From the NCBI RefSeq assembly GCF_019697375.1, contig NZ_JAHCDI010000004.1:3335324-3399323 (forward strand): 64,000 nt of DNA, in the 5' to 3' direction. Of this stretch, positions 7,362-54,680 are shown piece by piece. The notes under the pieces were generated by a model. It searched no databases and was not told the DNA's origin. It saw nothing but the letters and a program-made list of their open reading frames with translations. How positions within the stretch are numbered: the first letter of the stretch is position 1; the number at the start of each line of letters is the position of its first letter. Source of the stretch: Micromonospora tarapacensis (lineage in GTDB: Bacteria > Actinomycetota > Actinomycetes > Mycobacteriales > Micromonosporaceae). The translations under genes were made by a program, and so were the position numbers.

Positions 7362-8579
7362 TCAGGACGGCCGGCCAGCCAGCTCCGTGGCGACCGGGGT
7401 GTCCCAGTCGATCCGGTACCGCTGCTCCGGGCCGAGCGTCCGTTCCGGATCGAGGAACGTACGCAACGCCAGCGGCATCATGATCCGCATCATCCGCTTC
7501 GCGACCGGCCCGGCCGTCTTGGTGGAGGTGGTCTGCCGGCCGCGCCGGATGACCTTCTCCACCCGCACCCGGCGCAGCCGCTCGTAGGCGGCGAACGCGG
7601 CCGGCACGTCGGGGCAGTCCCGCAGGCACCGGGACAGTTGCACCGCGCTCTCCACGGCCAGCGACGCGCCCTGGCCGGAGCTGGGCGACGGCGCGTGCAC
7701 CGCGTCACCGACCAGGACCATCCGCCCGGCGTGCCAGCGCGGCACGGAGGGCATGCTCTCGATGGACCCCACGGCGACCAGGTCCTCGGGCTCGGTGTGG
7801 GCCAGCACCTGCCGGGCCGGCACGTCGTCGGCGAACACCGTACGCAGCCGGCGAAGCCACTGCTGCCTCGGGACCTGGTTCGCCCGCGCGTAGCTGACCG
7901 GCTGCCGGTCCGGCACGTTGGCGAACCAGGCGGTCCGGCCGTCGGGCTGCACCCAGTAGCCGAAGAACGCCCGGGAGCCGAAGACGAAGTACATCGCCTC
8001 CGGGTCGGCGTCGGGCACCGCGTACCGGGCGGCGCCGCCGAGGTTGAGCAGCGGCAGCACCTGCGGAGCGGGCGCCTGCGGGTCGATGAGCGTGCGTACC
8101 CGGGACCGGATGCCGTCCGCGCCGATCAGGACGTCGGCGGTGGCGGTGGAGCCGTCGGCGAACCGGGCGAGCACGCCGTCAGGGCTCTGCTCGGCGTCGA
8201 CCAACCGCTTGTCGTACCCAATCCGCACGCCCTGCGCCTGCGCCCGCTCGCGCAGCACCCGAGCCAGGTCGTCGCGCCAGAGCCCGAGCGTCACCGGCTC
8301 GACGGCGACGTGCGGGAACGCTCCGATCCGGCTGCCCCGGCCGTCGGTGACGACCGTGCGCCGCATCGGTAGGCCGACGCCCCGGACGGCCTGCTCGGCG
8401 TCGACGCAGCGCAACGCGGCCAGCCCGTTGGGCGCCACGGTCAGGGTGACGCCTCCATCGGCAGCCGGCGGGTACGCCTCGTGGACCGTGGCCTCGATTC
8501 CCGCGCGGCGCAGCGCCATCGCGGTCACCGGACCGGCGATCCCTCCGCCGATCACCAGCGCCGTTCGGACAGCTGTCAT
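7362..8579 (-). CDS. FAD-dependent monooxygenase (PHBH fold)
   Basis: A 405-residue flavin monooxygenase. The N-terminal Rossmann motif is ALVIGGGIAGPVTAMAL; the middle motif DVLIGADGIRSRVR is the DG motif that contacts FAD and NAD(P)H; GRMVLVGDAVHAPSPSSGQG is the GD motif binding the FAD ribityl chain. All three are typical of p-hydroxybenzoate hydroxylase-type enzymes that hydroxylate aromatic compounds or antibiotics. The substrate is unknown. The start overlaps the stop of the upstream PadR gene by four bases (ATGA), so the two are translationally coupled and probably share regulation by that repressor. Confidence 0.9.
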   Translation of the reverse strand: MTAVRTALVIGGGIAGPVTAMALRRAGIEATVHEAYPPAADGGVTLTVAPNGLAALRCVDAEQAVRGVGLPMRRTVVTDGRGSRIGAFPHVAVEPVTLGLWRDDLARVLRERAQAQGVRIGYDKRLVDAEQSPDGVLARFADGSTATADVLIGADGIRSRVRTLIDPQAPAPQVLPLLNLGGAARYAVPDADPEAMYFVFGSRAFFGYWVQPDGRTAWFANVPDRQPVSYARANQVPRQQWLRRLRTVFADDVPARQVLAHTEPEDLVAVGSIESMPSVPRWHAGRMVLVGDAVHAPSPSSGQGASLAVESAVQLSRCLRDCPDVPAAFAAYERLRRVRVEKVIRRGRQTTSTKTAGPVAKRMMRIMMPLALRTFLDPERTLGPEQRYRIDWDTPVATELAGRPS

Positions 8580-9172
8580 GTGCGACCCCCCATGGTCTCC
8601 TGCCAGGACTGTGCGTAGTCCGGCTGCTTGAGTGATTCGACGAGTTCGGCGACGAACCGGCGCTCCGCCTCCAGCAACGCGAGCGCGTACTGCTCCTCGA
8701 CCAGGAAGATCCACGCGACGCCGTCGGCACGGGCGTCGTCCATGGTCGTTCGGGTCTCCTCGATCCGGCCGGCCAGCGCCGCGCTGCGGCGCCGGAGCAC
8801 CTCGACGGCCTCGTCGGGCGGGAGCAGGCTGAGCAGCGACAGGGCGACGGCGAAGTGCGGATGCTCCTCGCGTGGCTGGGCCAGCAGGGAGCGCAGCCAG
8901 TCGTGCACCTCGTGCCGGCCCTCGTCGGTGATCGCGTAGACGGTGCGTTCCGGGCGGGCGCTGTCCCGGACCGTCTCCTGCGCGGCGACGAAGCCGGCCC
9001 GGGTGAGCTGCTCGATGACCATGTAGAGCGAGCTGCGGGTGTAGCGGATGTGCCGGTCCTTGCCGGTCTGCTTCAGCCGCCGGCCCAGCTCGTAGGGGTG
9101 CATCGGCTCCCACAGCAGCCAGGCCAGCACGGCCAGGGCGAGCGGGTTGGGCACCCTCCGACGACGCTCCAC
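8576..9172 (-). CDS. PadR family transcriptional regulator
   Basis: A 198-residue regulator with a PadR winged helix at residues ~10-85 (LAWLLWEPMHPYELGRRL, SSLYMVIEQLTRAGFV, TVYAITDEGRHEVHDWL) and a C-terminal helical dimerization part of the Vir-like type. GTG 9172 has AAGGGAG ahead of it. It is first in a two-gene operon with the FAD monooxygenase, fitting a local repressor released by an aromatic substrate or drug. Repeated GGATCGACTAT elements lie directly upstream. Confidence 0.88.
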   Translation of the reverse strand: MERRRRVPNPLALAVLAWLLWEPMHPYELGRRLKQTGKDRHIRYTRSSLYMVIEQLTRAGFVAAQETVRDSARPERTVYAITDEGRHEVHDWLRSLLAQPREEHPHFAVALSLLSLLPPDEAVEVLRRRSAALAGRIEETRTTMDDARADGVAWIFLVEEQYALALLEAERRFVAELVESLKQPDYAQSWQETMGGRT

Positions 9173-9184
9173 GACGACTCCCTT

Positions 9185-9216
9185 TAGTCAGGATCGACTA
9201 TGCGGGATCGACTATA
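9185..9216 (-). promoter_or_regulatory. Tandem GGATCGACTAT repeats upstream of padR
   Basis: The 11-base element GGATCGACTAT occurs at 9191-9201 and again at 9205-9215, offset by 14 bases. TAGTC at 9185-9189 also makes an inverted repeat with GACTA. Their position just upstream of the padR ribosome site suggests an autoregulatory operator. Confidence 0.5.
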
Positions 9217-9387
9217 CGGGTGTCAAGGCCGAGGGCCGACCCGGGGACACGGGTCCGAGGGCCTGGCCGGGGCCAGCGGCACCATCAGCCGGGAGTCTCC
9301 CCGGGCGCGGGCACGATGATGAAAGGATCAGCAGCGTCCACCACTCACCAGCGTGCCCGACCGTCCGGACTCACGAGGAGGTCCCCG

Positions 9388-9720
9388 ATGCCGGAGGCCA
9401 CGAGCACACCCGAGATCATCCGTCGGTACTTCGAGTTGGCGTCCCAACCGGACGCTGAGCCGTACTTCGCGCTCTTCGCCGACGACGCCGTCGTCGAGGA
9501 CGAGGACAGGACGCACGTCGGCCTCGACGCGATCCGGGCCTGGCGTGCCGATGTGCCGCTGGTGACGTACGAGATCACCGACGTCGAGCAGACCGGAGTC
9601 GGTACGGTCGTGACGGCCACCATCAGCGGCGACTTCCCCGGCAGCCCGGTGGCCGGCCTGCGATTCCGCTTCGAGGACTACGACGACCGGCACATCCGCC
9701 GGCTCCGCATCGCGCCCTGA
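9388..9720 (+). CDS. SnoaL/NTF2-like domain protein
   Basis: A 110-residue single-domain protein of the nuclear transport factor 2-like fold: an N-terminal helix (IIRRYFELA) followed by the family signature YFALFADDAVVEDEDRTHVG, then LDAIRAW and a curved sheet ending FEDYDDRHIRRLRI. Such proteins include SnoaL-type cyclases, ketosteroid isomerases and many of unknown role; no catalytic residue can be assigned. ATG 9388 has GAGGAGG seven bases ahead. A strong hairpin follows the gene. Confidence 0.83.
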   Translation: MPEATSTPEIIRRYFELASQPDAEPYFALFADDAVVEDEDRTHVGLDAIRAWRADVPLVTYEITDVEQTGVGTVVTATISGDFPGSPVAGLRFRFEDYDDRHIRRLRIAP

Positions 9721-9730
9721 TCGTGGAAAC

Positions 9731-9769
9731 AGCGCGAAGGCCCGGCTCGTCGAGCCGGGCCTTCGCGCT
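9731..9769. terminator. Perfect-stem hairpin terminator
   Basis: Two 19-base arms pair perfectly around a central T, with AGCGCGAAGG at the left end of the stem. It lies between the NTF2-like gene and the tRNA-Val arriving from the other strand, so it can stop transcription from both sides. No strong T run follows, as is common in high-GC actinomycetes. Confidence 0.75.
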
Positions 9770-9787
9770 ACCAGATCCATCTTGCGG

Positions 9788-9859
9788 TGGGCGATACTGG
9801 GTTTGAACCAGTGACCTCTTCCGTGTCAAGGAAGCGCGCTCCCACTGCGCCAATCGCCC
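9788..9859 (-). tRNA. tRNA-Val (GAC), second copy
   Basis: Same 72-base gene as at 6720-6791, with anticodon GAC in loop TTGACAC. It is the last member of a Gly-Cys-Val cluster transcribed from right to left. Confidence 0.95.
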
Positions 9860-9871
9860 TTGCTATTACCG

Positions 9872-9942
9872 AGGTGGGGACGGGATTTGAACCCGCGTAC
9901 ACGGCTTTGCAGGCCGTTGCCTCGCCTCTCGGCCACCCCACC
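9872..9942 (-). tRNA. tRNA-Cys (GCA)
   Basis: A 71-base cloverleaf on the reverse strand: acceptor GGTGGGG/CCCCACC, anticodon stem ACGGC/GCCGT around CTGCAAA (anticodon GCA), T loop GGTTCAAATCC. The middle gene of the Gly-Cys-Val cluster and the only member without a second copy in the window. Confidence 0.95.
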
Positions 9943-9976
9943 GAGGTTGCCCCCGTCACGCGTGGCGGCAGCTCCG

Positions 9977-10049
9977 AGCGGACGACGGGATTCGAACCCG
10001 CGACCCTCACCTTGGCAAGGTGATGCGCTACCAGCTGCGCTACGTCCGC
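9977..10049 (-). tRNA. tRNA-Gly (GCC), second copy
   Basis: Identical in sequence to the tRNA-Gly at 6825-6897; anticodon GCC in loop TTGCCAA. First gene of the Gly-Cys-Val cluster, directly behind a promoter at 10081-10110. Confidence 0.95.
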
Positions 10050-10080
10050 ACGCCCCCGATGAACCGGGTGACGGATGAGA

Positions 10081-10110
10081 ACTCTAGCCGAGCGGTCGAA
10101 CGGTTGCCAA
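10081..10110 (-). promoter_or_regulatory. Promoter of the tRNA-Gly-Cys-Val cluster
   Basis: On the reverse strand TTGGCA (10105-10110) is followed after 18 bases by TAGAGT (10081-10086), a good housekeeping-sigma pair ending about 30 bases before the tRNA-Gly. Confidence 0.6.
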
Positions 10111-10331
10111 ATCGGGTTCCCATCCCGGCGCGCCCGAAATCACCCCCAGTCAGCTTCCTAGGGGGGTGGGCTACCGCCTCGGGTGGCGCCGGTCCCGGGC
10201 CGATGAAAAAGCGCCGGTGAGCAGCGCAGCGGGGTGGAACTTGGCCGCCGAGCAACTGTCCGTCTTCCGACTGTCGCAAGCCGGATCAACCGGGCCTTGG
10301 TAACCGGCCGTGTCCGTTTCGATGGGCTACG

Positions 10332-10943
10332 GTGACGGGCGTGACGAGACGTGCGGCCGAGATCCGCCTGGATGCCCTGCTGCGCACCGCATGTGACGTG
10401 ATCGTGCAGCGCGGGTTGGCCAACACCCGCACCGCGGACGTGGCGCAGGCCGCCGGCGTGAGCCAGGCGCTGGTCTTCTACCACTTCGCCACCAAGGAAC
10501 GGCTGCTCGCGCAGGCCTTCGCGTACGCCGTCGAGCAGGATCTGGCCCGGCTCGACGCGGTCACCCGCTCCAGCGCCCCGCCACTGACCAAGCTCCGACG
10601 GATCCTGCGGCTCTACACTCCCGCCGGGCGCCCCACCTCCTGGTCCATGTGGATCGACGGATGGGCCGAGTCGCTGCGTACCCCCGAACTGGAGAAGGTC
10701 TCCCGCAAGCTGGACCTGCGCTGGCGGCAGGACCTCGCCACGGTGATCTCCGACGGCGTCCGCGAGGGCGTCTTCGAGTGCGCCGACCCGGCCGGCGCGG
10801 CCTGGCGGATCAGCGCCGTGATGGATGGGCTGGCCGTGCAGCTCGCGGTGCACGACCGGGTGATCTCCCGCCGGCAGTTCGCCGACTGGGTGCGCCTGGT
10901 GACCGCGCGCGAGCTGGGCCTCGACCCCGCCCAACTGGACTAG
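10332..10943 (+). CDS. TetR family transcriptional regulator
   Basis: A 203-residue repressor. The N-terminal HTH includes IRLDALLRTACDVIVQRGL, TADVAQAAGVSQALVFYHF and TKERLLAQAF. The C-terminal part (WIDGWAESLRTPELEKVSRK, then MDGLAVQLAVHD) is of the BetI-like TetR_C_6 type. The start is uncertain: GTG 10332 and GTG 10341 are equally plausible and neither has a clear ribosome site, so translation may be leaderless. The next gene follows by 59 bases on the same strand. Confidence 0.87.
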   Translation: MTGVTRRAAEIRLDALLRTACDVIVQRGLANTRTADVAQAAGVSQALVFYHFATKERLLAQAFAYAVEQDLARLDAVTRSSAPPLTKLRRILRLYTPAGRPTSWSMWIDGWAESLRTPELEKVSRKLDLRWRQDLATVISDGVREGVFECADPAGAAWRISAVMDGLAVQLAVHDRVISRRQFADWVRLVTARELGLDPAQLD

Positions 10944-11002
10944 GGCCGGCGGCGTTGCCGGAACCGGTCGCCGCCCACGCCGGTGCCGGGAACAATGGCG
11001 GC

Positions 11003-11578
11003 ATGGACCTGACGGAGACATACCGGCGCAGTCTGGCCGAGTTCACCGACCGGGTGGAACAGGTCCGCCCCGGACAGTGGTCGGCACCCACCCCCTGCCC
11101 CGGCTGGGACGTCCGCAGACTGGTCAACCACGTGGTCAGCGAGGAACGCTGGAGCGTGCCCCTGCTCGCCGGGCGCACCATCGAGCAGGTCGGCGACCGG
11201 TACGACGGCGACCAGCTCGGCACCGACCCGATCGAGGCCGCCCGCGCGGCCGCGGCGCAGGCCGAGCTGGCCGCCACCCATCCCGGCGCCCTCGATCGGA
11301 CCGTGCACCTCTCGGCCGGCGAGACGCCCGCCAAGGAATACCTGCACCAACTGCTGGCCGAACACCTCGTGCACGGCTGGGACCTGTCCGTGGCGATCGG
11401 CGTCGACCCCACGATGGACGCCGACGCGGTCACCGAGGCCGCCCGCTGGTTCGCCCGCCACGTCGGCGACTACCGGCGCGGCGGCCTGGTCGAACCCGAG
11501 GTCGGTGTGGCCACCGGGGCCGGCGAGCAGGACCGGCTCATCGCCGTCTTCGGTCGCGACCCCGACTGGGCGCCGTAG
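11003..11578 (+). CDS. TIGR03086 family DinB-like metal-binding protein
   Basis: A 191-residue four-helix-bundle protein of the DinB/maleylpyruvate isomerase N-terminal type. PTPCPGWDVRRLVNHVVSEE at residues ~31-50 and LLAEHLVHGWDLSVAIG at ~117-133 carry the His residues that bind a divalent metal in this family. Related proteins are mycothiol-dependent transferases or isomerases; the substrate is unknown here. It follows the TetR gene on the same strand and may be its target. Confidence 0.85.
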   Translation: MDLTETYRRSLAEFTDRVEQVRPGQWSAPTPCPGWDVRRLVNHVVSEERWSVPLLAGRTIEQVGDRYDGDQLGTDPIEAARAAAAQAELAATHPGALDRTVHLSAGETPAKEYLHQLLAEHLVHGWDLSVAIGVDPTMDADAVTEAARWFARHVGDYRRGGLVEPEVGVATGAGEQDRLIAVFGRDPDWAP

Positions 11579-11620
11579 CCACTGACGAGCCGGGCCGGGC
11601 CCGCCGGGGCCTGGGTCACC

Positions 11621-12535
11621 TCAGGTAGCCGCCGTCGCGGGGTACCGTCCGCCACCGGCTCCGCGGGCCGGGCCGCCGCGGCCGTTCCCATCGACCGGCG
11701 GCGGGAACGGCGCCGGCGGCGTCGACCGGCGGCTCGGGCTCCGGGTCAGGTGCCGCAGCCGCAGCAACAGACCGGCACCGAGGAACAGCAGCAGGCCACC
11801 GAGCAGGAAGGCCGCCTCGGTCAGGCCGAGCCCCCCGTTGCGCGACACCCGGCTGCCGGACGCGCCCGTGGCCGGCGGATCGGCCGCACCACCGGCATAC
11901 CCCGCGTCGTCGGCGAGGTCGCTCTCCTCATCCGTCGGATCGACCGTCGGCACCTCGACCGGTTCCTCGGTCGGGTCCACCGTCGGCACCTCCGAAGGGG
12001 TCGGTGCCGCCGTCGTGGGTCGGGCCGCCGCGCCCCGGGCCGCCACCTCGCGGGTCGCCGTCTGGCGGGACAACAGCCGCAGGTTCCGGTCGTACGCCTC
12101 GACCGCGAGGCTGACCCGGCCCTGGCCGGCATCCTCGTCGAACGCGATCCGGTACTGGGCGGTCACCGTGCGTCCCGGGCAGAGGGTGCCCGGATCCAGC
12201 TGGCGGTCGGTCAGCCGCACCACGTCACCTTCGGTCCGGGCCCGGACCGGGAACGAACCGGTCTCCTCGATCCGATCCACCCGCACCTGGTCCAGCCGCA
12301 GACCCTGCACACCCAGCACCATCGACCAGCGGACCTTGATGCAGCCGCCCTGGTCGGAGCGGGACACCACGGCGGACACCGTCTCCACCCGCCCGCCGGC
12401 GGTGAACTGGCCCGGCAGTCCGCTGAGTTCGGTGGCGAACGCCGCGTGCGCGGGTGCCGCCATGGCGAGGTCCACCCCGGTGAGACACGCCAGCGTCACC
12501 CCGATCCGTAGCGTGTTGCGCCACAGCCTCTTCAC
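11621..12535 (-). CDS. Secreted, C-terminally membrane-anchored protein of unknown function
   Basis: A 304-residue exported protein I cannot assign to a known function. It has a signal peptide (RIGVTLACLTGVDLAMAAPA, cleavage near residue 31), an extracellular beta-rich domain of ~140 residues (LCPGRTVTAQYRIAF), and a Pro/Thr/Glu-rich stalk with the repeat EVPTVDPTEEPVEVPTVDPT. A single membrane helix (LLGGLLLFLGAGLLL) and a basic tail follow. The anchor resembles LPXTG-like sorting ends but there is no LPXTG, so it is probably a membrane-anchored surface protein. GTG 12535 has GGGAGG ahead. It is divergent from the methyltransferase gene. Confidence 0.75.
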   Translation of the reverse strand: MKRLWRNTLRIGVTLACLTGVDLAMAAPAHAAFATELSGLPGQFTAGGRVETVSAVVSRSDQGGCIKVRWSMVLGVQGLRLDQVRVDRIEETGSFPVRARTEGDVVRLTDRQLDPGTLCPGRTVTAQYRIAFDEDAGQGRVSLAVEAYDRNLRLLSRQTATREVAARGAAARPTTAAPTPSEVPTVDPTEEPVEVPTVDPTDEESDLADDAGYAGGAADPPATGASGSRVSRNGGLGLTEAAFLLGGLLLFLGAGLLLRLRHLTRSPSRRSTPPAPFPPPVDGNGRGGPARGAGGGRYPATAAT

Positions 12536-12696
12536 GATCCCGCCTCCCGTTGGTCGCCTCCATTGGCAACGCTAGGAGCGGTCAGGACCAGCCGGTAGAC
12601 GGGCGTGTTCGCACGGACCGGCAAGCAAGATGCCCGTTTTCACGCACGGTATTGAACCGGTCACGGCCCACCCGCGACACGCCACTGCGGGTCACG

Positions 12697-13380
12697 GTGG
12701 ACAATCGGCCGGTGTCCGCGCTCTCCACCGCCTTCGTCCGGTTGCACGCCCGCCTCGCGCCCGTCGCCTTCGTACCCGAGGTGCGGCTGCACCAGGCGGA
12801 CGAACCGATCGGGTTGTGGGAGCTGACCGAGGGCGAGTTCCGCAGCGACCGGCCGCCCCCGTTCTGGGCCTTCGCCTGGGCCGGCGGGCAGGCCCTGGCC
12901 CGTCACGTCACCGACCATCCGCAGTTGGTCGCCGGCCGCCGGGTGCTCGACCTGGCCGCCGGCTCCGGGCTGGTGGCCATCGCCGCCGCCCGGGCCGGCG
13001 CGAGCGCCGTCCGCGCGGTGGAGGTCGACGAGCTCGCCGTCGCGGCGGTCGCACTCAACGCCGAGGCCAACGGGGTACGCGTCGACGCCGAACTCGGCGA
13101 CATCCTCGACGGCGACGCGGGCGACGCCCAGGTCGTCCTCGCCGGCGACGTGTTCTACAGCGCGGCGATGGCCAACCGGGTGCTGCGGTTCCTGCTACGC
13201 GCCGCCCGCTCCGGGGCGTCGGTGCTGGTCGGCGACCCCGGGCGGGCATTCCTGCCGCGGGACCGGTTCGACGAACTCGCCCGCTACGACGTGCCGGTCA
13301 GCGAGGCGTTGGAGAGCGTCCGGGTGAAGCGCACCACGGTGTGGCGGCTGCGCGCGGGGCGGCCGAAGCCACCCGGCTAG
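12697..13380 (+). CDS. Class I SAM-dependent methyltransferase (ETFB/Nnt1-like)
   Basis: A 227-residue methyltransferase. Motif I is VLDLAAGSGLVAIAAA, the acidic ribose-binding residue lies in AVEVDELAVAA, and VVLAGDVFY is the motif typical of the nicotinamide N-methyltransferase/ETF-beta lysine methyltransferase group. The N-terminal FWAFAWAGGQALARH (a Pro/Trp-rich lid) supports that group, which includes protein lysine methyltransferases. The start is uncertain: GTG 12697 or GTG 12712, both without strong ribosome sites. Confidence 0.82.
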   Translation: MDNRPVSALSTAFVRLHARLAPVAFVPEVRLHQADEPIGLWELTEGEFRSDRPPPFWAFAWAGGQALARHVTDHPQLVAGRRVLDLAAGSGLVAIAAARAGASAVRAVEVDELAVAAVALNAEANGVRVDAELGDILDGDAGDAQVVLAGDVFYSAAMANRVLRFLLRAARSGASVLVGDPGRAFLPRDRFDELARYDVPVSEALESVRVKRTTVWRLRAGRPKPPG

Positions 13381-13389
13381 CGTGACGCC

Positions 13390-14583
13390 GTGCTGTTCCG
13401 CAGCTGGGAGCAGGCCCCGCAGGCAACCGAGGGCGCCGGGGCCGGCAGCGGCGTGCTCCGGTGGCCCGGCGTGGCCCGCGTCGCCGACCACGTGGGCGTC
13501 GAGCACCTGCTGGTGACCCGGCACGCGCTGGTGCGGCGGGTGCTCACCGACCCGGCGACGTTCCGGCCGGACAACGCCCTGGACGCGGTCACCCCGATGC
13601 CGGTGGCCGCGCTGCGGGTGCTCGCCGCCCACCGGTTCCGGCTGCCGCCGACGCTGGCCAACAACGGCGGCGCCGGCCACCCCGGGATCCGGGCGCTGGT
13701 CGCCGAGGCCCTGCACCCGACGCGGGTGGCCGCCCAGCGGGACTGGCTGGCCGGGCTGGTCCGGCAACGGGTCGCCGGGCTGACCGCCACGCTGGACGCG
13801 GGCGACCCGGTGGACCTGCACGCCCACCTCGCCGCCGACCTGCCGCTGCTGGTCCTGGCCCGGCTGGTCGAACTGCCCGACGCTCCCGTGGCGGCGGTCA
13901 AGGACTTCGCCCACGCGGCGCTGGAGCTGTTCTGGGCTCCCCTGGACACCGACCGGCAGCAGACCCTCGCCACCGAGGTGGGCCGGTTCCACCGGGTGCT
14001 GCGGGAGTTCGCGGCCGGCGGCGGCGGGCTGGCCGGGTCGCTGCGGGCCGCCGGGCACCCGCCGGACGTGGTGGTCGGCGCGCTGTTCTTCCTGCTGGTC
14101 GCCGGGCAGGAGACCACGTCGCAGTTCCTCACCCTGCTGATGCACCGGCTGGTCGGCGAGCCGGCGGTGCTCGCCGGGCTGCGCGACGGGTCGGTCTCCG
14201 TCGGCGACGTGGTCGAGGAGGGGCTGCGGCTGGAGCCACCCGTCGTCACCTGGCGGCGGGTCGCCGCCGTCGACACCACGCTGGGCGGGACGCCGGTGGC
14301 GGCGGGCACCAGTGTGGTGCTGTGGCTGGCCCGAGCCGGCCGGGATCCGGCGGTGGTGGAATCGCCGGACGAGTTCCGGCCGGGGCAGCCCGGCTCGCGC
14401 CGGCACCTCGCCTTCGGGGCTGGCGCGCACCGCTGCGTCGGCGACCAACTCGCCCGGATGGAGGCGGCCACGGTGGTGGCGGAGACCGCTCCGCTGCTGG
14501 CCGGGGTGCACGTGGTGCGCCCGCCACGTTGCCCGGACAACCTCACCTTCCGGATGCCCGACGCCTTCGTCGTCCGCCGCTGA
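13390..14583 (+). CDS. Cytochrome P450
   Basis: A 397-residue bacterial class I P450. The I-helix oxygen-activation site is LLVAGQETTS, the ExxR motif is in VEEGLRLEPP, and the heme-binding loop FGAGAHRCVGDQLAR carries the cysteine ligand. No redox partner gene is adjacent, so it depends on ferredoxins coded elsewhere. The GTG start at 13390 lies 10 bases after the methyltransferase stop. It is convergent with bioD, 27 bases away. A BioI-like role in making pimeloyl precursors can be imagined but is not supported by any diagnostic residue. Confidence 0.92.
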   Translation: MLFRSWEQAPQATEGAGAGSGVLRWPGVARVADHVGVEHLLVTRHALVRRVLTDPATFRPDNALDAVTPMPVAALRVLAAHRFRLPPTLANNGGAGHPGIRALVAEALHPTRVAAQRDWLAGLVRQRVAGLTATLDAGDPVDLHAHLAADLPLLVLARLVELPDAPVAAVKDFAHAALELFWAPLDTDRQQTLATEVGRFHRVLREFAAGGGGLAGSLRAAGHPPDVVVGALFFLLVAGQETTSQFLTLLMHRLVGEPAVLAGLRDGSVSVGDVVEEGLRLEPPVVTWRRVAAVDTTLGGTPVAAGTSVVLWLARAGRDPAVVESPDEFRPGQPGSRRHLAFGAGAHRCVGDQLARMEAATVVAETAPLLAGVHVVRPPRCPDNLTFRMPDAFVVRR

Positions 14584-48192: not shown

Positions 48193-49782
48193 GTGACCCG
48201 TACTTCCGACCGGATCCGCCGTGCCCGGCTCACCGTGGCCGGCCTGGCCGCCGCCGTGGTGGTCGCCGCCGGCTGCACCCTGCCGGCGTTCGCGCCGCGC
48301 ACCGACGTCGAGGGCGACGTCGAGGCCGCGGCGCCCGGGACGGAGCCGACCTGGCGGGCCTGCCCGGAGGTGCCCGACGAGGTGGTCGGGCGCGGCGCGC
48401 CGGACATCCGGTACGAATGCGCCCGCGTCCAGGTGCCCCAGGACTGGGCCGGCGGCAGCGGCGCCACGGCCGGCCCCGGCGCCGGCGAGACCTTCGAGAT
48501 CGCACTGATCCGGGCCCGCTCCACCAACCAGCGCGACCGGATCGGCTCCCTGCTGGTCAACCCGGGCGGGCCGGGCGGCTCGGGCGTCGACACCGCGGTC
48601 TACCTGTCCTTCGGCGAGCAGTTCGGCGGCCTGCCCGACCGCATCCTGGAACGCTTCGACATCGTCGGGTTCGACCCGCGCGGGGTGGCCCGGTCCAGCC
48701 CGGTCGAGTGCATCCCGGATGCCGACCTCGACGCCGCCTTCGGCTACGACCCCGACCCGGAGAGCCAGCAGTCGTTCGACGATTTCGTGGCGCTCAACCG
48801 GCGGATCGGCCAGGGCTGCGGCGACAAGTACGGCGACCAGCTACCGCTGTACGGCACCGAGCAGGCCGCCCGCGACATGGACGCGATCCGCGCGGCCGTC
48901 GGCGACGAAAAGTTGACCTACCTCGGCTACTCCTACGGCACCCTGCTCGGCGCCACCTACGCCCAGCTGTTCCCGCAGCGGGTGCGGGCGCTGGTGCTCG
49001 ACGGTGCGGTCGACCCCCGCCAGGGGCTGATCGAGGGCTCGGAGAGCCAGGCCAGGGGCTTCGAGCGGGCCTTCGACAACTTCACCCGCTGGTGCGCGGC
49101 CAACCCCGCCCGCTGCCCGATCGCGCCGGACGCCCGGGCGGCGGTGACCTCCGCCATCGACAAGGCCAACGCCTCCCCGGTCCGCGCCGCCGACGGCCGC
49201 GAGGCCACCGCCGGCTGGGTCTTCTACGCGATCGTCTCCTCGCTGTACTCCGAACCCGGCTGGCAGCAACTCGCCCAGGCCATCGACCGGCTCGGCGAGG
49301 GCAACCCCGACGACGTGTTCCGCCTCGCCGACGCCTATACCGAACGCGACGACAGCGGCAACTACACCAACCTCTTCGACGCGAACCTGACCATCAACTG
49401 CGCCGACGAGGAGGAACGCCCCGACCTGGCGCGGATCCGCCAGCTCCAGTCCCAGTGGCGCGGGCAGTACCCCCTGTTCGGCGCGCCGCTCGCCGCCGGC
49501 CTGGTCTCCTGCACCGAATGGCCGGGCGGCAGCGACCCCTACCCCACCGGCCGCGCCGACGGCGCCCCGCCGATCCTGGTCGTCGGCACCACCGGCGACC
49601 CCGCCACCCCGTACGAGCAGACCCCCGCGCTGGCCGAGATGCTCGGCGTCGGCCAGGTGCTCACCTGGGAGGGCGAGGGCCACACCGCCTACCCGCAGAC
49701 CGCCTGCATCACCGAGGCCGTCGACGCCTACCTGATCGACCTGACCGTGCCGACCGACGGCAAGCGCTGCCCGGCGGGCTAG
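48193..49782 (+). CDS. Secreted alpha/beta hydrolase (tripeptidyl aminopeptidase-like lipoprotein)
   Basis: A 529-residue exported hydrolase. The signal sequence ends VVVAAGC (lipobox Cys ~28). SLLVNPGGPGGSGVD forms the oxyanion region; the nucleophile Ser is in TYLGYSYGTLLGATYAQLFP; the TAP-like C-terminal domain has PILVVGTTGDPATPYEQ (Asp) and WEGEGHTAYPQTACI (His). This matches the SCO-type tripeptidyl aminopeptidases that cut N-terminal tripeptides from secreted proteins. It starts 33 bases after the ligase stop, with AGGCTCG-type weak spacing at GTG 48193. Confidence 0.9.
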   Translation: MTRTSDRIRRARLTVAGLAAAVVVAAGCTLPAFAPRTDVEGDVEAAAPGTEPTWRACPEVPDEVVGRGAPDIRYECARVQVPQDWAGGSGATAGPGAGETFEIALIRARSTNQRDRIGSLLVNPGGPGGSGVDTAVYLSFGEQFGGLPDRILERFDIVGFDPRGVARSSPVECIPDADLDAAFGYDPDPESQQSFDDFVALNRRIGQGCGDKYGDQLPLYGTEQAARDMDAIRAAVGDEKLTYLGYSYGTLLGATYAQLFPQRVRALVLDGAVDPRQGLIEGSESQARGFERAFDNFTRWCAANPARCPIAPDARAAVTSAIDKANASPVRAADGREATAGWVFYAIVSSLYSEPGWQQLAQAIDRLGEGNPDDVFRLADAYTERDDSGNYTNLFDANLTINCADEEERPDLARIRQLQSQWRGQYPLFGAPLAAGLVSCTEWPGGSDPYPTGRADGAPPILVVGTTGDPATPYEQTPALAEMLGVGQVLTWEGEGHTAYPQTACITEAVDAYLIDLTVPTDGKRCPAG

Positions 49783-49794
49783 GCTGTTCGTACA

Positions 49795-50885
49795 TCAGGG
49801 TTGATCGGCAGTGAGCGCAGCGATCGCAGACCTTGCCTCCGGCATCTCGAACAGTTCCTCCAGGACCTGGGGATAGCTGACACCCTGCGCGACCCGGCCA
49901 CGCACTAGTTCAAAGGCCGCCCTAACGCCCGGTGAGGCGACCGGTGGGCGGGCCGGGACGGTGAGCGATTCTGCAGTGGACGGAGACAGCAGAGAGCCGG
50001 CGCGACCAACGAGTCGGCTTATCAGGTCAGCGTAGGAGAGGCCGTACCGGTCAAGTATGGGCCGGGAGCTGTGCAACTCCGCCGGCTCAGAAATCTCGCT
50101 CAGGGCCAACTGACGGGGGATCGAGGCTGCGGCGAGCACGATGTGCTCGAACTGAACATCGGTAGACCCCTCGCGGACGGCCTGCCGGCTCCCCTCGTTC
50201 TCAAGTGTCAGGAGCAGGCCGGAACTCGGCCCGTCGACCTTCCTCGAAATCACGTTAATGGGCCACATCAAAAGGCGGCTTACCATGTTCACGGGTAGGA
50301 GTCCCGTCGACTCCAACGAATCGACAGCAGGCGCCCAGGGGCGCTTACCCTGGAATGGCTTCAGGCGGCCGACCTCCGATAACAGGTCACTGCGGTTGAC
50401 GCCACTGCGCGTCAACAGAGCATTCGCCGTCGTCTCCTCGCTCACGAGAAGCGCGAGCAGCACTTCGCGGTCGCCGACCCATGGAAGTTCCCGCTCCGCG
50501 GACATTGATCGCGCATCGGCCAGAACCTGCACGGCTCCTGCCGTCCACGCGGGCAACACCGCGGACTGTCCACCAATCAGGAAGTCCGACCCGTCGCGGA
50601 CAACCTCGCGAAGGAGGGCACGAGCCCCATACAGGGAAAGTGGCTCTGCATGCCCAGACTCCCCCTTTTGTCGAACCTCCGATCCTCCAATGCCCGACCA
50701 TCCGACTTCAGGACGGTGTCGAGTGAACGAATCTCACCCCTCATCCTCCGACAATATTCAAGCAGCAGGTCACCGGATCCGACAGATAGTTTCCCGCCAT
50801 GGGCCGCCCTTTTGAACGCCGGCGTAAGAATCGCCATAACCGTCCACGACGAGTAGTCGAAGACGTCCACCTGAAGGCCACCCAC
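49795..50885 (-). pseudogene. Clp N-domain-repeat-like protein, one-base frameshift near 50666
   Basis: I do not recognise a named family. The first frame (from GTG 50885, or GTG 50870) reads SWTVMAILTPAFKRAAHGGK and SGDLLLEYCRRMRGEI. After ALEDRRFDKRG the signal jumps to a second frame, which runs EVRQKGESGHAEPL, GARALLREVVRDGSDFLIGG and AGAVQVLADARSMSAERELP, to the stop at 49795. One extra C in the CCCCC run (50661-50665) or T in the adjacent TTTT run joins them into a ~363-residue protein. AVQVLADARS...REVLLALLVSE and QFEHIVLAAASIPRQLA echo the alpha-helical repeat of ClpA/ClpC N-domains (helix, then a short H/V-LLLALL-type helix). No ATPase motif is present. Codons are richer in A/T than in neighbouring genes. 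Confidence 0.6.
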
Positions 50886-51026
50886 AAGACCTCAACTTCC
50901 ATCGATCTGTGCATAGTTACTTCGCTAGAAACAACCCCACCACGCAATATCGCCGCCTACGGCATCCAAAAAAAAACGATGGTCAAATCAGGCACAGAAG
51001 AACAACGCCGAAGCCGTGGGTGCGGA
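50886..51026. other. Low-GC intergenic patch with A9 tract
   Basis: About 140 bases of unusually AT-rich sequence for this genome, including a run of nine A residues near 50969. No gene is visible. It probably holds the promoter of the Clp-repeat gene and marks foreign or remodelled DNA. Confidence 0.5.
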
Positions 51027-51179
51027 TCAGTTCATACAGGGGGTGAGCATGCCGTCGATCAGCGTTTCCAGCTCGTCCTGGTAGCGCTCCGTGGTCGAGG
51101 AGCCACAGGCGAACAGTTCGGCCAGCACGTCCGGTGGCAGGTTGTGCCGCAGCACGACCGCGAACCTGATCTCAGCCAC
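51027..51179 (-). CDS. 50-residue ORF or gene remnant, in frame behind a TAG stop
   Basis: From GTG 51179 the reverse strand reads EIRFAVVLRHNLPPDVLAEL, CGSSTTERYQDELETLIDGM and ends LTPCMN. Its codons are strongly host-like (C/G third positions), unlike the flanking accessory genes. It is in the same frame as the upstream gene and separated from its TAG stop (51201-51203) by only seven codons. It may be a small gene or the C-terminal scrap of a native gene interrupted by the island. No family is recognised. Confidence 0.4.
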   Translation of the reverse strand: MAEIRFAVVLRHNLPPDVLAELFACGSSTTERYQDELETLIDGMLTPCMN

Positions 51180-51200
51180 AGCCGCAGAGCCCGAAGGAAA

Positions 51201-52142
51201 CTACTCGCTACGGCCGCCCCCTGACATCAGGTTGATGCCCTGCGCCTCCGCCACTTGCTCGGCGCGACGAATGATCTCATCGATTTCGCGTTCGTAGAGC
51301 CCGAGATCCTCGACGGCCTGCACGAACCCAAGCACCTTCACCTGAATCGCTAGTTCCAGATCCACTTCCCCGTATGCGGCGGCATCCTCCCCAAGGACGC
51401 CCTCGATTATCGAAGTGGCGGTCGACCGGTCCAACAGTGGGTCTTGCGAAGCGGCGACTACTCTGCCGACGAAACCGGCAACCATCTCGACAGTCCGACC
51501 GCGATGAAAGCGTTGCCTGACTGCGATTTCAAACGCAGCGTCGACCACTGCGGCGATCGCGTCGTTCGACTGCTCACGCGGCGACGTAGCCACCCACTCA
51601 TGATCATAGCCAGCCATAGCTTCCAACGTCTGACCGATCACCGACCTCGGTTGACTGCCGGCAGCATCGCCGCCGCCTTTGGTGGCGGCACCTTCACGTG
51701 TCGCACGCCGAGATCGTCCAATCTTACGGCGCCAACGATCCAGCCGCTTCTCCGCAGCCCTGACCAACTCTGCCGTATCCCATTCAGACAGACACGCTGT
51801 CCGCACTAAATCGTCAAGAATGGGTAGAACCAGTAGTCGCTCACGCCGACGAAGGTCAAGTGGATGGGCTGCCCCCAGAGCCAGATCAACAAGCGCCGCA
51901 ACGACATGCGGCGCGACGGGGGAAGTCCCCTGCCTCATCAGGACGGCTGAAACATAGCTTCGCGCCGCCTCGGCACCGGTGTCTTGAGCAAACATTCGCC
52001 GCATCGCGACAATCCACGCCTGATAGATCAACTCGGATGCCGAGGCAGGGTGGACCATCAGGCGCAACGTACGTCCCAGATCCTGATCGATCAGATACTG
52101 CCACACACGCCTTCCGGCACCCGTCACCGGCGCCAGGGTCAC
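51201..52142 (-). CDS. Helix-rich protein of unknown function in the Clp-repeat island
   Basis: A 313-residue protein (from GTG 52142, with GGGAGG 8 bases ahead; GTG 52163 is an alternative) that I do not recognise. It is almost entirely helical: YLIDQDLGRTLRLMVHPASA, ELIYQAWIVAMRRMFAQDTG, VLPILDDLVRTACLSEWDTA, then a basic stretch ([20 protein letters not shown]), and VDAAFEIAVRQRFHRGRTVE toward the end. No signal peptide, membrane segment or catalytic motif is visible. It lies between two Clp-repeat-like genes and is divergent from one of them, so it may be the third member of one system. Codon use is less GC-biased than that of housekeeping neighbours. Confidence 0.65.
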   Translation of the reverse strand: MTLAPVTGAGRRVWQYLIDQDLGRTLRLMVHPASASELIYQAWIVAMRRMFAQDTGAEAARSYVSAVLMRQGTSPVAPHVVAALVDLALGAAHPLDLRRRERLLVLPILDDLVRTACLSEWDTAELVRAAEKRLDRWRRKIGRSRRATREGAATKGGGDAAGSQPRSVIGQTLEAMAGYDHEWVATSPREQSNDAIAAVVDAAFEIAVRQRFHRGRTVEMVAGFVGRVVAASQDPLLDRSTATSIIEGVLGEDAAAYGEVDLELAIQVKVLGFVQAVEDLGLYEREIDEIIRRAEQVAEAQGINLMSGGGRSE

Positions 52143-52610
52143 CTCTCCGGCCTCCCGTACCACCGCCTCGCCACCTCCGCGCCCATCTTTGCCGCACGCT
52201 TTGCTAGCACCAAGACTCCCAAGAAGCCTATAGAGGCTCCACGAAGGTTGATGGGGGTCGGCTGACGCCGCCGGTCTGTCCAGGGTGGACCATGGACTGA
52301 GGGTGCCCGTGGCCATGGTTGAGGATATGTCCGGTGGCGCTGCGCCACCACCCGGCGCACCCGAGGCCACCTCGGCCCCCGGCAACTTCGCTGAGCCCGT
52401 ATCACGCGGTGCGGAATGCAAGGAAGAGTTACCGGGAGGCCGGCGGCGGCTACGCCGCGCACCGCAAGCCCGTACCCTATCGCGGCAAGCATCGACACGC
52501 TCCGCAGCACCGAGGTCAATACAACCCGAATCGGGCCACCGGGATTTTGTTTCGGCAGACGGCGGCGAGGGTGGGAGCCGGAGGACGTAGCCCATAGAAC
52601 GGAGGCGGCC
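52143..52610. other. Divergent 468-base intergenic region
   Basis: Lies between the divergent unknown gene (51201-52142) and the Clp-repeat gene at 52611. A plus-strand frame at 52319-52597 reads RNARKSYREAGGGYAAHRKP and KHRHAPQHRGQYNPNRATG, basic and without a known match; it could be a small gene but the evidence is weak. The rest presumably carries two promoters. Confidence 0.4.
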
Positions 52611-53750
52611 ATGTCCACCGCGATCGGTGGAGGCACGTATTCGGTGCTGCGCCGAGCTGGGCGCGAGGCGGCGCGTCTGAAGAAGACGAGCATCGGCGTC
52701 GACGACGTGCTCTTCGGCATGCTGGGGCGTTATCCGCGGCTGCGGATGGCGGTCCCGGTCCGGCCGCAGCCGCAGCGTAGCGAGGAGCCGCGCGAGCCAT
52801 CCGATGACTTTGAGTTGTCGGTGGAGCTGATGCTTGAGGTGGTTCGGGCGATGCGGGAGGCGTACTGGCGGTCTTTCGGCTGGCCAGGCCCGGCGCGGGA
52901 CCGGTTTGCGGAGGCGCCCGGCTGGGAGCCTTCTGCGGTGGCGGTGTTACGGCTTGCCGCTCATCTTGCGGTGCTGCGTCGGGCATCGTGCGTGGGCAGC
53001 CACCACTTGCTTGAGGCGCTGTTGGAAGGCCCGGGCCGGCACGCTCACGAGTATATTGCGCTGGATCGATTCTTGGCTGGTCGGCTGGATGATGTGGTGG
53101 CCCGGCTGTGGCCGGAGGGTGACCGGGAATCGCCCCGGCCGGGGATTGCCGGGCCGTTGCGGGAGATCGGGGTCCTTGGCCGGGAGCCTGGCAGGAGGAC
53201 AGGCCAGTTGAAGAGGCGCCTGGCTGTCTCGGCCAGTCGGCTGTTCGCCGAGACCACGCCGGCATTGAGCTGGCTGGAGGTGGAGGCGGTCGCCGAGACG
53301 GTCCGGCTCGGGCACGACCGCACGTCGCCGGCGCATCTGATCATGGGGGTGCTCGTGCTCGAAGAGGAGATGCAGGCCGGCGACCTTCGGCCCGCCTCGC
53401 CGTCCGATATAGCGAACGAGGTCCTGCTCGGCCGTTTCGGAGCGGCCCGGCAGGACGCCAGCCTTGTGACAGCAACGACGAGCTATGGCGCGGAGATAGC
53501 TGGACCGCGTCCGAAGCGGTCATGGCAGACCGACCGGAGAAACCCGCCGTGGACGGTGGCGGCTGCCCGGATCGCCGAGCGGGCCCGGGAACTAAGCACA
53601 CTCGGGGCGCGGGTGCCGGCAGGAAGCGCTCATCTGGTGTACGCCGCCGTCACCGACTCTGATGCAGGTGGCCGACAGTTGCTCTCTGATTTGGGCGTCG
53701 ATCCTTCAGCCGTTCGCGGCTTGGCCGCCGATCGCCTCGGACTGACTTGA
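52611..53750 (+). CDS. Tandem Clp N-domain-like repeat protein without ATPase
   Basis: A 379-residue protein that appears to consist of repeated ClpA/ClpC N-domain-type units. The units are VLRRAGREAARLKKTSIGVD-DVLFGML (residues ~10-40), AVLRLAAHLAVLRRASCVGS-HHLLEALLEG (~110-140), VEAVAETVRLGHDRTSPAHL-IMGVLVLE (~220-250) and AARIAERARELSTLGARVPA-GSAHLVYAAV (~320-350). Each shows a helix, a small-residue turn, and an H-L-L/V-type second helix. The last unit ends LLSDLGVDPSAVRGLAADRL, as in Clp N-domains. No Walker motifs occur, so it cannot be an unfoldase itself. It may bind substrates or act as an adaptor. ATG 52611 has GGAGG 5 bases ahead. Confidence 0.68.
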   Translation: MSTAIGGGTYSVLRRAGREAARLKKTSIGVDDVLFGMLGRYPRLRMAVPVRPQPQRSEEPREPSDDFELSVELMLEVVRAMREAYWRSFGWPGPARDRFAEAPGWEPSAVAVLRLAAHLAVLRRASCVGSHHLLEALLEGPGRHAHEYIALDRFLAGRLDDVVARLWPEGDRESPRPGIAGPLREIGVLGREPGRRTGQLKRRLAVSASRLFAETTPALSWLEVEAVAETVRLGHDRTSPAHLIMGVLVLEEEMQAGDLRPASPSDIANEVLLGRFGAARQDASLVTATTSYGAEIAGPRPKRSWQTDRRNPPWTVAAARIAERARELSTLGARVPAGSAHLVYAAVTDSDAGGRQLLSDLGVDPSAVRGLAADRLGLT

Positions 53751-53906
53751 CACCAGCACAAGCCGCAAAGCCCGTCGGTCGAAGTAGGCTCCGAAGGCAC
53801 CAGCCGAGTGATCAAGACCGTCGTCCGCGACGCCTACGCCTCCGCAACCCCGTCAACCAGGAACCACGCACCCGCTGCGCCAGCACCCGCTGCGCCCGGG
53901 GCCACC

Positions 53907-54680
53907 TCAGCCCCGCCAATCTCGTTGAGCCCCAGGGGGAAGGGGCGCCGCCCGACCAGGGCGGTGGTCGGGTTCGGTGCGGGTGGCAGCCCCTTCCCCT
54001 TCCAACGCTCCGGGAGGGTAGAGGCGTACAAACCGGGTGACGGTGTCGCGGTCACCCTCCACGCGTACGGTGCCGGCGCGTTCGGCGTCCGCGAGCGGCA
54101 GGCCGCCGAAGAGCACCTCGCTCCAGACCGTCGACTCGGCGGTCACGGTCGCCGCCGGGTTGCCGGCGGCACCGGGCTGGACGTCCAGCAGTCGGTCGAC
54201 GGCGGCCAGCTGGTATTCGCGTACCGGTGGGTTGGTCTGGCGGGCGTCGTACAGGCGCAGGGTGGTCGGCGGCAGGTGGTCGGGGGCCGGCGGCGCCATG
54301 GTGCGCATGGCCAGGATCGCGGCGTCGGGGGTCATGCCACCGCTGGTGCGCGGATCCCGGCCGGACGAGTACCACCGGCCGAGCGCCGCGAGCACCGACT
54401 CCAGCCCACGACCCCACTCGGTGACGACGTACGCGCGGGTGCGCGCCAGGTCGGGCAGGGTCACCTGCTCGACGACGCCGGCCTGCCGCAGCGATCTGAG
54501 CCGGTCACTGAGGACCGCCGGAGTGATGCCACGAACGGCCTCCTGTAGGTCGGCGAAGCGTTTGGGGCCGAGGAGCAGTTCACGGACGACGATGAGCGTC
54601 CACCGGTCACCCACCAGGTCGAGGGCGTTGGCCGCCCGGCAGGCGTCGCCGTGCTGCGCGTAGGTCAACTTGGCAGGCAA
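53907..54680 (-). CDS. HxlR family regulator with C-terminal SCP2-like domain
   Basis: A 257-residue regulator. The winged helix (~10-105) has LDLVGDRWTLIVVRELLLGP, RFADLQEAVRGITPAVLSDR and LRSLRQAGVVEQVTLPD, typical of HxlR. The second half (VREYQLAAVDRLLDVQPGAA, VTAESTVWSEVLFGGLPLAD) resembles a sterol-carrier-like ligand domain, as in many actinobacterial members. Starts with TTG 54680; ribosome site weak. It is divergent from the DUF899 gene and probably controls it. The last ~25 residues are low complexity. Confidence 0.85.
   Translation of the reverse strand: MPAKLTYAQHGDACRAANALDLVGDRWTLIVVRELLLGPKRFADLQEAVRGITPAVLSDRLRSLRQAGVVEQVTLPDLARTRAYVVTEWGRGLESVLAALGRWYSSGRDPRTSGGMTPDAAILAMRTMAPPAPDHLPPTTLRLYDARQTNPPVREYQLAAVDRLLDVQPGAAGNPAATVTAESTVWSEVLFGGLPLADAERAGTVRVEGDRDTVTRFVRLYPPGALEGEGAATRTEPDHRPGRAAPLPPGAQRDWRG

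Follow-up and report, generated by a model that had tools for sequence, protein, structure and literature searches.

Candidate orphan immunity genes with tandem Clp N-domains at a chromosomal site of RHS toxin loci in Micromonospora

Three genes on a G+C-poor island in the genome of Micromonospora tarapacensis are quite probably immunity genes for RHS-type polymorphic toxins that persist as orphans, and would have accumulated at a chromosomal site of RHS toxin-immunity exchange among strains of the genus. A family of immunity proteins built from tandem Clp N-domains (Clp-N) would include genes 1 and 3, whereas gene 2 would belong to a second, unrelated helical immunity family, in which one domain is present twice. 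The patchy occurrence of these genes, their low G+C content, and the broken state of gene 1 speak for this reading. The window, by which we mean the whole stretch of 64,000 nucleotides that was analyzed, belongs to a genome of 6.9 Mb, and the best-matching named proteins are from Micromonospora and its kin. The features of the island and its flanks are as follows (window coordinates):

48193..49782, plus strand: left flank, gene for a TAP-like alpha/beta hydrolase, the marker of the insertion site
49783..53906, no strand: G+C-poor accessory island between the TAP-like hydrolase gene and the hxlR gene
49795..50559, minus strand: downstream part of gene 1 (254 codons), candidate orphan immunity gene in a broken copy; the product is a diverged protein of Clp-N repeats
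50577..50885, minus strand: upstream part of gene 1, in a different frame, matching the N-terminal part of intact relatives
51201..52142, minus strand: gene 2 (313 aa), candidate immunity gene; an unknown helical domain occurs twice in tandem
52611..53750, plus strand: gene 3 (379 aa), candidate orphan immunity gene; a tandem pair of Clp N-domains (about residues 1-175 and 212-379), no ATPase
53907..54680, minus strand: right flank, gene for an HxlR-type regulator

Gene 3 has a Clp N-domain fold. The protein matches PF02861 at 21.1 bits (cut-off 20.7), as do its relatives at loci L099 (36.5 bits) and L085 (41.4 bits), and its structural matches begin at residues 1-3 and again at residue 212. 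There is no GxxxxGK[ST] or hhhhDE pattern (Walker motifs) in the three frames tested and no AAA domain detectable by Pfam, and these proteins are not Hsp100/Clp unfoldases (ClpA/B/C); the preliminary description was right about Clp-N repeats without an ATPase. Nor is gene 3 a ClpC2: ClpC2 has a size of about 250 aa and one Clp N-domain, unlike gene 3, which has 379 aa and two Clp N-domains and lacks the N-terminal dimerizing and DNA-binding part. The window's genome encodes a separate ClpC2-type gene (242 aa, C4:3765321; type judged by eye). ClpT1 and ClpT2 are plant plastid proteins that are accessory to the Clp protease, and we know of no link between them and toxins. The Arabidopsis ClpT1/ClpT2 structures (PDB 4y0b, 4y0c) match one Clp N-domain only.

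Gene 1, which had been described as a single protein, is in fact split over two frames (49795-50559 and 50577-50885). Its downstream part taken alone scores 18.6 bits against Clp_N (PF02861), below the cut-off; alignments to seven relatives of 252-383 aa cover 99-100% of the query at 61-80% identity. For the upstream part, 75-78 residues align at 54-56% identity to the relatives at L099, L100, and L132. The longer relatives of gene 1 (343-383 aa) belong to the family of gene 3 but have diverged, with ~20-22% identity to gene 3, and both are found with one profile. Short gene 1 relatives are also present in the database (n = 4; 252, 254, 206, and 157 aa).

Gene 2 has no match in Pfam, NCBIfam, or PADLOC, and its predicted structure is all helix, although weak (pLDDT 65), with no convincing fold on fold comparison; the initial view of it as an unknown helical gene stands. 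A domain profile built from 11 single-domain relatives (~142 aa) matches gene 2 twice, at residues 34-135 (iE 2.2e-5) and 193-299 (iE 1e-13), in searches of a small set with filters off. Two domain matches are found in all seven of the long gene 2 members, the first half being weak (iE 0.0003-0.015) in five. Single-domain relatives occur in a repeated cluster (L076 7481-9183, L090 7854-9194, L093 7836-9179, and also L075 and L077), alongside a small protein of coiled appearance and a putative DUF6244 protein of 224-236 aa; this cluster is possibly another toxin-immunity type.

In RHS toxins, the cytotoxic tip is freed by a HINT module. Some relatives of the island genes, as opposed to the genes in the window, occupy the position typical of an immunity gene, directly behind such a toxin. 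The searches covered genomes of the family (200), the genus (160), and the class (296), as well as one named collection. A Clp-N family match of at least 60 bits to a broad profile defined 38 loci in the retrieved regions, with duplicates counted once; ClpC2-type proteins were left out, as were L195 (49 bits), L196 (ClpC2-type), L144 (no match), and eighteen weak places (E 2.5e-6 or worse). At seven of the 38 loci (L074, L085, L086, L088, L096, L127, and L145) the Clp-N gene lies directly 3' of an RHS open reading frame on the same strand. These RHS frames have 1210-3153 codons in six cases, L088 being a 199-codon C-terminal fragment, and five of the seven contain PT-HINT. The gap to the Clp-N gene is -4 to +30 nt at five loci; for L074 and L127 there is an apparent overlap with the toxin end, based on the longest Clp-N frame. 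No RHS gene is directly upstream at 29 of the 38 loci, many of which hold distant members amid ordinary genes, and two further loci are cut off by a contig edge. Among 200 genomes, none has more than 13 PT-HINT matches (RHS genes without HINT fall outside this count), so a random gene would be expected behind a toxin well under 1% of the time. The binomial probability of seven in 38 at a rate of 0.4% is 1.9e-10, or 1.7e-5 if only four tip classes are independent.

At L074 the toxin is followed by Clp-N, a small gene in two copies, a single-domain gene 2 relative, and Clp-N again, so that homologues of the island genes do occur as neighbors outside the window. The small genes at this locus (7503-8565) are a tandem pair from a family of 136-164 aa with no Pfam match. 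At L096 (Actinoplanes solisilvae), the Clp-N gene is flanked on one side by a 2347-codon RHS toxin and on the other by a second RHS/HINT cassette, whose tip is different. The succession of toxin, immunity gene, and then a second RHS/HINT cassette with another tip is a layout described for loci of this kind. A gene 2 relative also takes this position: at L083 (genome G091), it shares 7 nt with the end of the gene for an RHS/HINT toxin. Another, at L129 (G261), is 3.2 kb behind an RHS/HINT toxin and separated from it by an Imm32 gene (48.7 bits). The L083 toxin is split over two overlapping frames (8405-14202) and is therefore broken or misassembled. Two of the four long gene 2 loci with known surroundings, the window included, are near an RHS toxin, and the two toxin tips beside gene 2 relatives are mutually dissimilar. 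A distant Clp-N gene at L136 (6875-11071) is upstream of a row of small genes rather than an RHS toxin, and the last genes of this row are a nuclease-looking one, unmatched in Pfam, and a SUKH-4 gene (32.4 bits).

The Clp-N genes also go with a particular class of toxin tip, as is expected of immunity proteins (YxGxH tips, by a motif set afterwards). At least two Y-x-[G/P]-x-H motifs are present in all five tips of PT-HINT toxins that precede Clp-N and in none of 35 other tips (p about 1.5e-6, kinship ignored). The tip sample was made up of the 30 best-scoring PT-HINT loci, which is not a random choice, and seven others; two tips in it have no recognized HINT end, one of these being the L083 toxin again. 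The Clp-N-linked HINT tips have 109-125 residues and two to four copies of the motif, fall into at least three sequence types, and have no Pfam match beyond the HINT domain. Because the motif was defined post hoc from the tips themselves, three of the five tips are mutually homologous, and the RHS genes before Clp-N at L088 and L127 have neither HINT nor the motif, the five-of-five figure should not be overread. These two RHS genes (L088 6171-6770, a fragment, and L127 2960-9253) have a hydrophobic, basic tip. With the L086 tip (114 aa) as query, clear matches were found in two of 200 genomes, the source and one other, both beside Clp-N, and no match was found in the window's genome; two weak matches were rejected. 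Such co-occurrence of tip and Clp-N is the pattern expected from toxin-immunity pairing. The one PT-HINT match in the window's genome is in an RHS toxin elsewhere on the chromosome (L243 1909-9790; G000:C4 about 5.508-5.516 Mb), which has an unrelated tip and a neighboring 216-codon frame that overlaps the toxin end.

The site of the island is one that it shares with toxin loci. The island, with the order gene 1 (minus), gene 2 (minus), gene 3 (plus), has a GC of 0.645 vs. 0.723 ± 0.025, and its GC3 is 0.64-0.77, compared with 0.97 for the two genes upstream and 0.84-0.85 for the two genes downstream, in agreement with the accessory island first suggested. The TAP-like hydrolase gene was found in all 160 genus genomes searched, and the best 30 of these 160 hydrolase loci were surveyed, with 12 kb more retrieved for 16. 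The hxlR gene is directly behind the hydrolase gene in six of the 30 (L163, L165, L168, L169, L174, and L175), and in G259 the site is empty, with 44 bp between the hydrolase match and the hxlR match. In four other Micromonospora genomes (G191, G274, G263, and G177), the site is occupied by an RHS toxin of 2222-2344 aa, oriented with its 3' end facing the hydrolase gene. At three of these four sites, the gene that separates toxin and hydrolase is homologous (76, 60, and 93% identity) to a gene in the island of M. gifhornensis; at the fourth, in G177, a transposase-like gene intervenes. The remaining 12 of the 16 extended loci have neither a toxin nor island-type genes close by.

Immunity-type genes are found at the same site in further strains. 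In M. gifhornensis, relatives of genes 3 and 1 and a SUKH-4 gene (58.8 bits) accompany homologues of three genes that elsewhere stand behind the site toxins, with no toxin seen in the stretch examined; this island has the make-up of a polyimmunity locus, in which unlike immunity genes stand in a row, without a toxin, and vary among strains. M. lutea has neighboring relatives of genes 1 and 3, G254 has a gene 1 relative only, and G302 has a gene 3 fragment, so that island content varies among these strains and the window. The G302 site (L124 8478-10408) includes a 430-aa ATPase-looking gene and the fragment of the gene 3 relative. There is no toxin in the window, and tblastn with four toxins detected no RHS remnant (best E in the island 0.22). 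The window is thus a further state of a shuffling site, in which the toxin is absent and immunity-type genes are retained, one of them broken. The polyimmunity status of the window's own three genes would rest on the families to which they belong.

The Clp-N proteins and the gene 2 product are likely to bind toxin tips, to neutralize them, and, as orphans, to protect against the toxins of neighbors. In the simplest mechanism, a cytosolic immunity protein would directly bind the C-terminal tip released by HINT and block it, and the Clp N-domain may serve merely as a good binding scaffold; we consider such plain blocking slightly better than an even chance. The earlier guess at a decoy or a defence function thus pointed in the right direction, although the findings lead to polymorphic-toxin immunity and not to protein quality control.

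Two other mechanisms would serve the same immunity role. The tips might attack or jam the ClpC N-domain, with the Clp-N repeat proteins acting as copies of the target that soak up the toxin. Both this decoy mechanism and the fuller proposal, that RHS toxins with Y-x-[G/P]-x-H tips kill via binding to the ClpC N-domain and that their immunity proteins are duplicated-domain decoys kept as orphans, appear unlikely. ClpC2, which is partly homologous to ClpC1 and has the Clp N-domain fold, shields mycobacteria from cyclomarin A, dimerizes via its N-terminal domain, and represses its own promoter; it has been termed a "molecular sponge" for cyclomarin A and possibly for other ClpC1-targeting toxins (PMC10030653). 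This precedent favors decoys, as do the duplicated ClpC N-domain fold of the Clp-N repeat proteins and the unusual motif common to the tips. However, gene 3 has only 16-18% identity to ClpC N-domains in most of its 20 best structural matches and its alignments to the ClpC of the window's genome are weak, so conservation of the target surface is not evident, and there is no sign of any tip binding ClpC. This low identity makes close mimicry by the Clp-N proteins less likely.

Somewhat less probable still is an adaptor role, in which a Clp-N repeat protein would bind the tip and deliver it to ClpC/ClpP, giving immunity through proteolysis. ClpC binds its substrates and adaptors through the Clp N-domain, and MecA-ClpC and phospho-arginine structures are among the structural matches of gene 3, in keeping with this role; but in the systems known to us, the N-domain is on the unfoldase side and not on the adaptor.

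Position behind a toxin is not in itself proof of neutralization, because a chaperone would occupy the same place, and the location of the relatives is equally compatible with accessory or chaperone genes that assist the folding or export of an RHS toxin. We nevertheless regard such a function as improbable, since these genes occur beside a known immunity type where no toxin is present (M. gifhornensis, with SUKH-4) as well as behind a toxin that is accompanied by Imm32, and since they are linked to a class of tip rather than to the common RHS/HINT body. Least probable of all is the three-gene sensor, signaling, or protein quality-control system originally envisaged, to which the low G+C island, the Clp-N fold, and the divergent arrangement would lend themselves, but which is opposed by the broken gene 1, the placement of relatives behind toxin genes, the lack of a PADLOC match among six proteins scanned, and the presence of all three families in only one of 160 genus genomes, that of the window (gene 3 family, four genomes at E <= 1e-100; gene 1 family, four at E <= 1e-100; gene 2 family, three at E <= 1e-80). 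What survives of the proposed association is that relatives of genes 1 and 3 adjoin in M. lutea and share one island in M. gifhornensis, without an obligate trio.

The proposed immunity to RHS-type toxins has parallels in known systems. Polymorphic-toxin immunity proteins based on interaction repeats (Imm-Ank, Imm-LRR, and Imm-HEAT) and polyimmunity loci are described in the accessible part of Zhang et al. (2012, PMC3482391). The genes reported here resemble the former in lying, in their relatives, directly behind an RHS/HINT toxin gene and in having a protein-binding scaffold, and the latter in forming strain-variable arrays with SUKH and other immunity genes; they differ from Imm-Ank, Imm-LRR, and Imm-HEAT, as presented there, in that the scaffold is the Clp N-domain. 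The terms "ClpA" and "Clp-N" are absent from the first 300,000 of the 357,715 characters of that article (PMC3482391). Mycobacterial ClpC2 has the Clp N-domain fold in common with gene 3, and its protection consists in binding a harmful molecule, according to the accessible part of PMC10030653. ClpN repeats fused to vWA proteins occur in FtsH ternary conflict systems (Kaur et al. 2020, PMC7159879), which likewise place Clp-N repeats outside an unfoldase and in bacterial conflict; unlike the ClpN-vWA systems in the accessible part of that article, Clp-N genes of the window type stand alone, and their relatives are behind RHS toxins. Among the top matches in the open-licence literature we found no Clp-N-based immunity family, the nearest being the ClpN-vWA fusions of PMC7159879; this is weak evidence of absence. 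Immunity proteins and polyimmunity loci are already known, and the Clp-N scaffold is the apparent novelty.

If the immunity reading is true, part of the unexplained group of "Clp protease N-terminal domain-containing proteins" would be a toxin immunity family, and a class of tips with no Pfam match beyond HINT would gain a predicted partner. It would also provide a test of whether bacteria use the substrate-binding domain of their own unfoldase as a shield against protein toxins, by analogy with mycobacterial ClpC2 and cyclomarin A as described in the accessible part of PMC10030653. The Micromonospora site would then be a natural record of the mutual replacement of toxin loci and orphan immunity genes.
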